Source: Cryptosporidium bovis (lineage: Eukaryota; Apicomplexa; Conoidasida; Eucoccidiorida; Cryptosporidiidae). From it: a DNA stretch of 64,000 nucleotides. Positions 26,817 to 30,442 of this stretch are shown piece after piece. The DNA lies in NCBI GenBank assembly GCA_009768925.2, contig VHIT02000028.1, positions 620,896-684,895 of the forward strand. The letters are read 5' to 3'. Under the pieces are notes generated by a model. The model did not search any database. It was not told the DNA's origin and worked only from the letters and a program-made list of their open reading frames with translations. The first letter of the stretch is position 1. Each line of letters opens with the position of its first letter. The translations under genes and the position numbers were made by a program.

Positions 26817-29800
26817 TTATTTCTTAATATATTCTTTGTTATTATAGTATTTGTTTTGAAACAAAGACATTTTTGTCCATGGTGAGAGTTTTCCTATATA
26901 ATTAATATATTTTTTATTTAACGTTTTATTATTATATTCAAAAAAAAGTATAGTTGGTTCTTTATAAAGTGGGGAATTGCAGGGAACTCTAATGGAACTA
27001 AAAGTATTCTTAGTATCGTTTTGTCCTTCATTAAAACAAATATTACTATTCTCATTTTTACAGTAATAAACATCCTTAAAAAAATCAACCTCTTCTTCAA
27101 AAACAAATTTCGAAACATGATTCCATAAATTATTATTTGACTTCTCGTCTCCTTTATAAAGTATTTTGTTATCTAAATTACATTTTACATTACTACTCTC
27201 TTCATACATTGAAATAAGTTTTTCCCATAAGTAATTAGCTTCCTCAATTTGTTTTTTATTCTTAATAACTCTAATATTCTGTTTATAGTCCCTTTCTGTA
27301 TTAATCAAATATCTTAAACGCATAATTTTTTCTTCAAGAAAATCATTATGCTCTTTTCTGTCCAAATCTCCATTTAGTATCATCTCTCCCATTACTTCCT
27401 CAACAAAGTCCTCCAAATGATTCATTTTACTAGAAAGTGCATATTTATTTAATTTACTTAACTTGAACAAATTTATGTCTTCATTAAGTGTATTACATGT
27501 TATTGACAGTAACAATCTGTGTTTATTAATTCCATATACATAACTTATTGAATCTTCCATTGCATATTCTATGTGATTTTTTCCATCATAATGTTTAAAT
27601 AATTTGTTTCTCAAGTACTGTTGATTATCGCTATCAACTAATACCTCATTTATTCCCCTAAATCCACATCTTTTAAATGAATTTAATCCGTATCTTTTTA
27701 CCGTAAAACTTCCTAATTTTATATTAACATATCTTCTTCCTTTATAGCTGTCATTAAATAATATTCTTGATTTACAATTAAATACGTTCTTTTTTTTCCC
27801 CAATAATCTCATGCTTCTATTATCTTTTCCAATAAATCCTTTTGAACTATTTGTTCTCTCTGTATTTGCTACCTTATATAAACAGTATTCCATTTTTTCA
27901 TAGCTACTTTTGTTATACATCGCTTTTAAATCTGCTATACAACTTTTGTTGCTTTCATCTTGACTACTTTTGTAAATATTCGTCTTACTAACTTTATTGT
28001 TAGTAATGTCATCGTTACCAATGTTATTATTACCATCATTACTATTATTATCATTATTACTACTATTATTGTTATTATTATTAATATTACTATCATTATT
28101 ATCATTACTATTACTAACATTATTGCCATCAAGACTATTATTCTCAGTCATTTTATTATTAGTTCCAGTGCTATTCGCACTTATCTCGGCCTTGGATAAG
28201 ATAAGTCCCATATTTACATTCTTTACTGGTGAAAATGTATTTGAATTTGCTTTTAAATCAATAACATTTCGTGTACAAATGCTTTTCTTTAATAAAGGTG
28301 ATGATGCGTAAATATTTTTTCCATTTATTTTTGGTTCTATTGGTACTTTGGTTGTTTCTAAAACAAAAGACTCTGTTTTAATGTTTTCTTCCTCTTTATT
28401 AATCACAGAAAAATTGCTTTCAATACTTTTATCCTCTTTAATCTGCACTTTTTTCAAGTTTAAAAAACTCTTACTCACCAAATTAGGCTTGGCTTTAACA
28501 CAAGAATCAGCTAATTTTGAAATATTTGTTTTCATTGGTATTTTATTTTCGGCTTTTGTCTTATTGAAGATAGTCTTTTTAGCTTCATCCCCAACATCAT
28601 TGTTGCCATTCTTTTGAACCACCAAATGACTATCTTTATCCTTTGAAATTACCATTTTCACTCCCTTCTTAGGCAGATTTAACTCTTGTTTATATAATTC
28701 TTCCTTAAATCCAATGTTTGAAACCACACTACTCTGATTCTTAGTAATGACCTTTGAAATGTCACATTTCATATTAAAAATCTTTAACTTACCCGAAAAA
28801 TTGCCATCATTTTTGCTCTTTTCCATTAAAAAAGGCATACTTCTAACACCTGGTAAACTTAAATTCTCATCTCTTATATTGATATCAATCTCATCTGTAC
28901 CCTTCCTTACTTCTTTAATGTTATTCAGTACTTTTTGAAGATTATATAAATTATCCCTTTTAATACTAACTCTCACTTTGTTTAGATCTTTCCCACTTAA
29001 TATCAAATTTTTCTGCAAATCTATTATTATTCTCGATTTGTTTTCATTTCCAAAATTTATACTCAACTTCTTTATTCTCTCATTTTTCAAACTTAATATG
29101 TAATTTCTGAGAATATCCTCACTTTGTTTTATTTCATCTAACAATATCCTGGCATTTTTTTTCTCAAACCCTTCCCTAAATAGTTTTATCCGTTTCTCAC
29201 CCTTCTCAACCCCCCTTTCAGGTGAAATACCTATACAACTGCAAAATAAAACTTTTGGTTCAAAATTAACATTAGAATCTTGCCTTTTATTTATCTTATC
29301 GATGCTCTTTGCTATGACATTATGCCTCCTCAGATACATACTGTTTTCTATTTCCCTTAATTCCCCTTTTATCTTAAATAATATGGAATTAAATATAATG
29401 CTTTTCTTAATATTCAATGCAGCGTTGTCCAGGTTATTTATATATACATTTCTCTCAACAAAATTTGCCCTTTTTGAAATCTGTTTGTACAAATCTGCCT
29501 TATTTTTATCCCCATACGTATTACACTTGGTGGTATTCCCAATAACACCAATTTCATTACAACTATTTACACCACTAATACCATTACTTCTACTGCAAAC
29601 ATTGCTACTATCTAAATCACTCCTTTTCCTTTGCTCTGCTAACAATAAACTCCTCCCATAAACAACTTCTTTTCTGTTCAATTTTAAACCAAGGTCCAAT
29701 TCGTTATTGCAAGCTGAAATTGTGTCGGCACATTTATTCGCATCTACAATGTTCGTTCTAGCACAATTTCTAGCAAGCAAATAGTCATACTTATGATCTT

Positions 29801-29912
29801 TCACCTCCTCAGCTTCATTCAGCGAGAGAAGCACTGGTTCCTTTGGCGAACAAGAAACCGATTCATTATACAAATTTCTTTTTATTATCATGTTACTTAA
29901 AAAACTCTGCAT
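26817..29912 (-). CDS. large basic Asn-rich protein, probable main part of a two-ORF gene
   Basis: 1031 codons from ATG 29912, function not recognised. It is strongly basic, with a Lys/Asn-rich N-terminal 650 residues, a low-complexity Asn/Ser/Asp stretch (28000-28135 in the DNA), and a more ordered C-terminal 350 residues containing FKRCGFRGINEVLVD, helical Glu/Lys-rich segments and conserved-looking aromatics (ANYLWEKLISMYEES). A second open frame, 29939-30442, lies just upstream on the same strand in the frame that a -1 shift would connect. The gap between them is 26 bases and is filled by a perfect hairpin. I think both belong to one gene of about 1190-1208 residues, joined by frameshifting, a 53-base intron, or a base missing from the assembly. 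Confidence 0.65.
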   Translation of the reverse strand: MQSFLSNMIIKRNLYNESVSCSPKEPVLLSLNEAEEVKDHKYDYLLARNCARTNIVDANKCADTISACNNELDLGLKLNRKEVVYGRSLLLAEQRKRSDLDSSNVCSRSNGISGVNSCNEIGVIGNTTKCNTYGDKNKADLYKQISKRANFVERNVYINNLDNAALNIKKSIIFNSILFKIKGELREIENSMYLRRHNVIAKSIDKINKRQDSNVNFEPKVLFCSCIGISPERGVEKGEKRIKLFREGFEKKNARILLDEIKQSEDILRNYILSLKNERIKKLSINFGNENKSRIIIDLQKNLILSGKDLNKVRVSIKRDNLYNLQKVLNNIKEVRKGTDEIDINIRDENLSLPGVRSMPFLMEKSKNDGNFSGKLKIFNMKCDISKVITKNQSSVVSNIGFKEELYKQELNLPKKGVKMVISKDKDSHLVVQKNGNNDVGDEAKKTIFNKTKAENKIPMKTNISKLADSCVKAKPNLVSKSFLNLKKVQIKEDKSIESNFSVINKEEENIKTESFVLETTKVPIEPKINGKNIYASSPLLKKSICTRNVIDLKANSNTFSPVKNVNMGLILSKAEISANSTGTNNKMTENNSLDGNNVSNSNDNNDSNINNNNNNSSNNDNNSNDGNNNIGNDDITNNKVSKTNIYKSSQDESNKSCIADLKAMYNKSSYEKMEYCLYKVANTERTNSSKGFIGKDNRSMRLLGKKKNVFNCKSRILFNDSYKGRRYVNIKLGSFTVKRYGLNSFKRCGFRGINEVLVDSDNQQYLRNKLFKHYDGKNHIEYAMEDSISYVYGINKHRLLLSITCNTLNEDINLFKLSKLNKYALSSKMNHLEDFVEEVMGEMILNGDLDRKEHNDFLEEKIMRLRYLINTERDYKQNIRVIKNKKQIEEANYLWEKLISMYEESSNVKCNLDNKILYKGDEKSNNNLWNHVSKFVFEEEVDFFKDVYYCKNENSNICFNEGQNDTKNTFSSIRVPCNSPLYKEPTILFFEYNNKTLNKKYINYIGKLSPWTKMSLFQNKYYNNKEYIKK

Positions 29913-29925
29913 TTTAATATTATCT

Positions 29926-29966
29926 GGGGGAGTATTTCTTAAAATACTCCCCCTCCTACAAAATTT
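29926..29966 (-). other. slippery heptamer plus perfect 12-bp hairpin at an ORF junction
   Basis: On the minus strand, reading 5' to 3': heptamer AAATTTT (29966-29960) in frame as A AAT TTT; six-base spacer GTAGGA; arm GGGGGAGTATTT (29953-29942); loop TAAG (29941-29938), whose TAA is the stop of the upstream frame; arm AAATACTCCCCC (29937-29926). This is the textbook layout of a -1 programmed frameshift site, and -1 is the frame needed to enter the 1031-codon frame downstream. A competing reading is a 53-base phase-0 intron, donor GTAGGA at 29959 and acceptor GCAG ending at 29907. Confidence 0.5.
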
Positions 29967-30442
29967 AACTTATCCTCATCATTCACTATTGGCAGACTTA
30001 ATTTTCTCATCGGAGTATTGTTTTTTCCCGAAAACAATATTGAGTAATCCAACTCTTTCCTTCCCGTATCCACACCTCCGTCTTTACTATTTTTACTAAA
30101 ATCTAATATACCAGTATAATTGTTATTATTATTCTTTCTCAAGTTATTCATCAATTTTTTTGTCTTCAATTTATTTACTACACTGTTTGAAAACTTTTTC
30201 AAATGTACTTTCAATATTGCTATTCGATAAATTAAGTCAATGTATTTTCTTGACTTTATTCTTCTTACTATATTCGTAAGATCCTTATCTATCTTATCTA
30301 GTTCTTTCATCTGTTCTAACATGTTTATCCGATCTCTCGCTCTTATTTTCTCCATCTGAGTCTTATCATAACCCAAGAGACTATCCTTTCCCCCCTCAAC
30401 TACTCCCCTTCTTGTTGGAATCACAAGTTTTTCAACTCTCAT
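29939..30442 (-). CDS. upstream ORF, probable N-terminal part of the same gene
   Basis: 167 codons from ATG 30442 to a TAA that lies in the loop of a perfect hairpin. The product is basic and helical (MEKIRARDRINMLEQMKELD, then a Lys-rich YIDLIYRIAILKVHLKKF segment) and ends in an odd glycine run, FVGGGVF. That last stretch is what one expects when a frame runs out after the true junction. It is not a known domain. Same strand, same composition and immediate adjacency to the 1031-codon frame argue that it is the amino end of that protein. As a stand-alone gene it would be a small basic protein of unknown role. Confidence 0.6.
   Translation of the reverse strand: MRVEKLVIPTRRGVVEGGKDSLLGYDKTQMEKIRARDRINMLEQMKELDKIDKDLTNIVRRIKSRKYIDLIYRIAILKVHLKKFSNSVVNKLKTKKLMNNLRKNNNNNYTGILDFSKNSKDGGVDTGRKELDYSILFSGKNNTPMRKLSLPIVNDEDKLNFVGGGVF

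Follow-up and report, generated by a model that had tools for sequence, protein, structure and literature searches.

How two long reading frames that overlap on one strand, and lie out of register by one base, come to be expressed is the question raised by a locus of Cryptosporidium bovis. The window analysed here, a whole stretch of 64,000 nucleotides, is the end of contig C23 in a genome of 9.06 Mb and 43 contigs. The answer favoured by the comparison of sequences, to which we give a probability of roughly three in four, is that this nuclear gene uses programmed −1 ribosomal frameshifting, a feature retained by most of the Cryptosporidium species sampled.

Layout of the junction and its fold

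First of all, ORF1 (29939..30442, minus strand, like all features described below) defines the 0 frame. It starts with the ATG at 30442 and contains 167 codons followed by the stop codon TAA (29941-29939); it encodes a conserved N-terminal protein, and a stand-alone product is predicted for it. ORF2, in the −1 frame, is open for 1050 codons (26817..29969), or 1031 codons when counted from the ATG at 29912 down to 26817. Since the −1 frame has a stop codon TAA in the sequence at 29970..29972, the switch of frame must occur downstream of that stop. The shift site A AAT TTT (29960..29966) is in phase, and its Phe codon TTT (29962-29960) would be the last 0-frame codon of the fusion; ORF2 then provides 1047 codons after the shift (29960-26820), and the fused product would be composed of 161 + 1047 = 1208 codons. 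The site is followed by the 6 nt spacer GTAGGA (29954..29959) and by a perfect 12-bp stem with a TAAG loop (29926..29953), the putative frameshift stimulator. The arms of the stem are GGGGGAGTATTT (29953-29942) and AAATACTCCCCC (29937-29926), and the loop (29941-29938) contains the 0-frame stop codon of ORF1, with 18 nt between the Phe codon and this stop.

Two features by which −1 frameshifts are recognised are found here, namely a structure 5–9 nt downstream of the site (the 12-bp stem after 6 nt) and a 0-frame stop near the site together with a long open −1 frame. The first-pass annotation of this DNA had described the 167-codon ORF, the heptamer, the 6-base spacer, the 12-bp stem, the stop in its loop and the long −1 frame, all of which are present as stated; its −1-frame stop before the heptamer, followed by a 1031-codon frame, was likewise confirmed in the sequence (TAA 29972-29970; open to 26817). 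In the 124 kb that were read (G000:C23:560896-684895, 30% GC), the coding score is 44 bits over 168 codons for ORF1 and 263 bits over 1049 codons for ORF2, and no other two of the 54 coding-like ORFs overlap, or nearly adjoin, on the same strand in different frames.

The stimulator is a simple hairpin, with −20.2 kcal/mol in a 54-nt piece, an energy equalled in 1 of 1378 other coding windows of 54 nt. The 81-nt fold from 29980 to 29900 reaches −24.2 kcal/mol (z −4.5), and none of 200 shuffles was equally stable. In this extended fold (29900..29966), seen in one sequence only, an outer 10-bp helix around the hairpin pairs the shift-site side with sequence near 29910 (AAAUUUUGUA with the downstream UGCAGAGUUU). 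The pattern GGGGG-N(8-38)-CCCCC occurs at 10 distinct places in the genome, and the longest perfect stem around the other nine has 9 bp. Among the 25 longest of 37 pairs in the window are other perfect inverted repeats of 11–14 bp, mostly AT-rich. Among 5000 synonymous 3′ arms that preserve the −1-frame peptide, 163 fold as well as the real arm and 82 pair perfectly; the real arm exceeds synonymous chance by a modest margin only and gives a modest hint that the RNA as such is under selection. At the gathering score no Rfam family was matched at the site, and two tRNAs reach it elsewhere in the window.

Conservation of protein on both sides of the proposed shift codon

A protein search with ORF2 gave only its own protein among a capped set of 7984 candidates scored, and a region search with ORF2 residues 660–1050 returned seven relatives (P0004–P0010) together with the window's own protein; neither search gave an ORF2 protein of C. 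xiaoi. Three relatives, those of chipmunk genotype I, C. canis and P0009, span the hairpin region. The hairpin falls within the −1-frame codons for RGSILRNTPP, and its DNA, read in the −1 frame, is conserved protein (FCRRGSILRNTPP here; FSQRGSIASRNTPP, FSRRGSIQLRNTPP and FRKGGSVDLRNTPP in the relatives), and therefore the hairpin is coding. To the junction peptide KFCRRGSI-LRNTPP of the window correspond KFSQRGSIASRNTPP in chipmunk genotype I, VFSRRGSIQLRNTPP in C. canis and YFRKGGSVDLRNTPP in P0009; the core RRGSI-LRNTPP is QRGSIASRNTPP, RRGSIQLRNTPP and KGGSVDLRNTPP, respectively, in the same three relatives. The segment RRGSI (29957-29943, −1 frame) resembles a basophilic kinase site, the pattern of which is R-R-x-S, and this could be a reason for conservation at the level of the protein.

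Over the first 20 residues of the −1 frame, 12, 14 and 10 of 20 are identical between the window and chipmunk genotype I, C. canis and P0009, respectively, with medians of 4, 3 and 3. This identity is reached by only 6, 5 and 7 of the first 500 ORF2 windows, and by 75, 22 and 118 of all 1030, in the same order; in comparisons between the window and these relatives, no other stretch within the first 500 ORF2 positions is conserved as well as the junction, and the C-terminal half is conserved equally or more highly. Between C. canis and chipmunk genotype I the junction is unremarkable (14/20, reached in 151 of 951 windows). The C. ryanae protein (P0004), which is without the RGSI-RNTPP segment, was entered in this comparison as 0/20, having no sequence in the 20 residues that follow the shift. 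C. felis P0010 is without the conserved N-terminus and bears on nothing at the junction; its source names it DUF4183, and its start model may be wrong.

A 53-nt spliceosomal intron (29959-29907, GTAGGA...GCAG), which the first-pass annotation had offered as an alternative, would join the frames in phase, and a hairpin can bring splice sites together; however, it would delete the conserved RGSI-RNTPP-Met segment, its donor GTAGGA is unlike the GTAAGT of this genome, and the C. canis frames appear to abut, leaving no room for it. Since the hairpin is coding, the 53-nt intron is excluded as the usual product, and to a spliced junction of this or any other kind we assign an almost negligible probability. 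Of Cryptosporidium introns, 84% begin with GTAAGT (PMC2483917). In the present genome it is the enriched donor, 6 of 50 sites linking coding frames where 0.65 are expected (3 of 6 junction places in the 124 kb). For GTAGGA the count is 0 of 25, under a rule that cannot count the window's own site, where the −1 frame is open across. GTAAGT does not occur among the 338 GT-AG pairs up to about 700 nt that would fuse both frames; GTAAG occurs as a donor once, at 30268, and its intron would have to span at least 362 nt and would delete conserved ORF1.

On the 0-frame side, a profile of the N-termini gave 6 hits, namely the window and P0012–P0016, with stand-alone ORF1 proteins listed in C. xiaoi, C. 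hominis, C. meleagridis, C. ubiquitum and P0016. For C. hominis, the entries of ORF1 and of ORF2 each give the longest contig as 990,770 bases. These five relatives stop 5–7 codons past the shift Phe, a residue shared by all 6 stand-alone ORF1 proteins, the window's among them; the C-terminal ends are NFVGGGVF, NFVEGGVF, YFHEGGV, YFHKGGV, HFHKGGVFL and YFHKGGVLI. The same split at the same codon thus appears to be kept in several relatives, which is rare for an ordinary cellular gene. This speaks against an assembly error, such as the single missing base proposed by the first-pass annotation, or a chance frameshift mutation in the isolate. Short T and G runs do lie beside the hairpin, but ORF1 proteins with the same end stand alone in five other sequences, four of which are from named species, and C. 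canis appears to have the same −1 break, all this across long branches; a slip would need to have happened again and again in separate assemblies. The missing-base proposal therefore fails, and error or mutation is left with a very slight probability.

We also asked whether any DNA coding an ORF1 end can read [SC][RQ]RGSI at −1. This two-frame test succeeded for 6 of 6 ends at one register (the window in known DNA, the other five as feasible), the five informative ends coming from related species and not being independent draws, and the +1 control gave 0 of 6. The background, from which P0002 and P0003 were excluded as duplicates of the window proteins, was 4–9 in 10,000: the reading is possible for 8 among the 8745 remaining family heptamers and for 82 among 200,000 random ones. 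If both frame readings hold, the DNA is nearly fixed as TTT-N6-GGGGGAGTAT in all six, so that the 6-nt spacer and the 5′ stem arm are probably invariant across the six sequences. Such hidden-frame results are feasibility arguments from proteins, not observed DNA; one scan each of genome contigs and viral contigs gave no relative with orthologous DNA. A looser cassette, AY-TTT-N6-GGNGGNGTNT, occurs at 4 places in the genome, the window's included, and at 1 in the reversed control; the other three places (G000:C2:285594, C8:292391 and C23:45827) may be chance.

A further mark of −1 frameshifting is a conserved break with the 0 frame before it and the −1 frame after it, and this is what the proteins give, with P0009 as the exception: orthologues of several species conserve the 0 frame up to the shift Phe and the −1 frame from the next codon on, which supports the frameshift first proposed for this site. 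The main rival is an independent start of ORF2 on a dicistronic mRNA. ORF1 would be made alone, ORF2 would begin at its conserved Met (M-x-S-F, 29910..29912) by reinitiation or leaky scanning, and the hairpin would serve as a spacer element. This Met is conserved and could be an independent start, and the ORF2 proteins of C. hominis and C. meleagridis begin with it (MSSFLG). Its ATG lies in an A-rich context 26 nt after the ORF1 stop, and polycistronic transcripts are reported in C. parvum, of which a review counts 201 (PMC12246861). However, with an independent start one expects no protein constraint between the ORF1 stop and the ORF2 start, whereas the −1 frame from the shift site to the Met is conserved as protein, with RNTPP and further residues past the ORF1 stop, in the four proteins showing it. 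Moreover, conservation changes frame at one codon, the sole indel between the shift site and the Met is a whole codon, and P0009 is listed with a fused frame. The independent start is on these grounds unlikely, at odds of perhaps one in six or seven.

The apparent break in C. canis and the continuous protein P0009

In the C. canis protein P0007, residues 65–126, when read one base on, are the ORF1 protein. This hidden reading matches P0009 without gaps, with a score of 205 (mean 114 and maximum 144 in 100 shuffles), and P0005 with 183 (shuffle maximum 129), and the other shift scores 82 against P0009 (shuffle maximum 97). It is feasible for KNQYF to stand immediately before the −1-frame SRRGSI in C. 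canis, and a like test succeeds at only 3 of 8751 family hexamers. C. canis therefore appears, from these readings of its protein, to have the same −1 break, the frames abutting without room for an intron, and the annotated N-terminus of its protein is likely an artefact of bridging the break. The models of C. ryanae P0004 and chipmunk P0005 also skip parts near the junction, which fits the same cause and is not decisive; the N-terminal parts of the public gene models P0004, P0005 and P0007 appear to bridge the break with doubtful introns.

P0009 is listed as one continuous protein through the junction. It groups with C. canis in the ORF2 and ORF1 trees (support 82/94 and 94/91), the latter including C. 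canis with 64 residues only, and it seems to suggest that a fusion of ORF1 and ORF2 is tolerated in a canis relative, with uninterrupted DNA assumed from the listing. Strongly supported forks are few in these trees, with stars on 2 of 5 and on 1 of 7 inner branches, and breaks occur to either side of the midpoint root. Probably, then, the ancestor already had the break and P0009 lost it, because one such loss is simpler than several gains in the same direction at one codon.

Proposed slippage, comparable systems and gene context

Under the programmed −1 frameshift, most ribosomes would finish ORF1 and release a protein of 148–167 aa. A fraction would stall on meeting the hairpin while UUU, the Phe codon, occupies the decoding region; moving back by a single base on U UUU, these would read on into ORF2 and produce the ORF1–ORF2 fusion. 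The stem 6 nt downstream would help the −1 slip at the Phe codon. We infer that the slip takes place, how efficient it is and what part the hairpin plays in it, and likewise the native DNA sequence in the other species and what each of the two proteins does. The same fusion protein, and conservation at one site, would also follow if the frames were joined in the RNA, whether the polymerase slips at the T run or editing inserts a base there. The T run at the shift site has only four bases, however, and a hairpin at 6-nt spacing fits ribosomal slippage; we know of no such editing of nuclear mRNAs in this group, and joining at the RNA level is given a low probability.

As for the shift site, the heptamer of the X XXY YYZ type is in phase in the window, as the first-pass annotation had it, but it is not the conserved part. 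The codon before the shift Phe is Asn, Tyr or His among the six sequences, and the classical A AAT TTT is seen in the window alone, although chipmunk genotype I could have it; the shared shift element, as far as the proteins indicate it, is NAY UUU, not the classical heptamer. Since a Tyr or His codon before Phe, as in other species, cannot re-pair at −1, only the Phe tRNA would re-pair fully there, if its codon ends in T.

Such NAY codons are read by queuosine-carrying tRNAs. Asn, Asp, His and Tyr together make up 22% of these proteins, and 6 of 6 have Asn, Tyr or His immediately before Phe; this NAY pattern, from six proteins of few lineages, may be chance. The genome has two matches to the tRNA-guanine transglycosylase (TGT) family (G000:C8:222387-223460 and C38:382017-382655), so that queuosine modification is likely in the parasite. 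A doubtful extension of the frameshift reading, for which we would give long odds, is that the −1 shift depends genus-wide on slippage of the Phe tRNA alone, always after a NAY codon, and that the ratio of short to fused product could respond to gut queuine.

The nearest comparison is PaYIP3 of filamentous ascomycetes, for which the authors favour −1 frameshifting by slippage of the single P-site tRNA at a non-consensus site (PMC3777964). Like that gene, the present one is nuclear and non-mobile, with short and long products (predicted here), a downstream RNA structure, a non-consensus shift site and a break kept over a large clade, PaYIP3 having two clades that differ (PMC3777964). The PaYIP3 site is U UUU UCC, followed after 2 nt by a pseudoknot, and was tested by tagging and reporters (PMC3777964), whereas the case here is an alveolate one, putative from sequence, with NAY UUU and a simple hairpin 6 nt downstream. 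In direction, spacer, structure and early 0-frame stop the locus also resembles the viral and retroelement-derived −1 frameshifts, including mammalian PEG10 and Ma3, and A AAT TTT of the window fits their pattern of X XXY YYZ, a 5–9 nt spacer and a stem or pseudoknot (PMC5009743, PMC3777964). Unlike them, it has no Pfam match suggesting a mobile or viral gene, and tandem slippage is impossible at the Tyr/His sites of other Cryptosporidium species. The mitochondrial frameshifts of Perkinsus are also frameshifting in a myzozoan, but the genes concerned are those of an organelle (PMC9550989), whereas the present gene is nuclear and has a hairpin.

Among stable chromosomal genes, few cases of frameshifting that is conserved in evolution are known (PMC5009743). 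For Cryptosporidium and Apicomplexa, the matches listed from the open-licence literature, by titles and the starts of abstracts, include no frameshifting in a nuclear gene. If the reading is true, this would be a cellular −1 frameshift conserved over long protein branches, gene models in several species would have split this gene or bridged the break with doubtful introns, and a compact native site would be available for studying slippage without tandem re-pairing.

As to the identity of the proteins, no Pfam family passes the cut-off for ORF1, ORF2 or the five relatives scanned, a sequence search of the PDB gave nothing significant (best E 0.42), the AlphaFold model of the C-terminal part has a mean pLDDT of 36, and locus tags guessed from the C. 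hominis number gave no literature match. The nearest relative of ORF2 is that of C. ryanae (60% over 327 columns), and ORF1 has 91% identity to C. xiaoi over 105 columns. In addition, the window carries an apicomplexan inner-membrane-complex protein, and its thioredoxin reductase is close to the two top PDB chains, which are presumably those of C. parvum.
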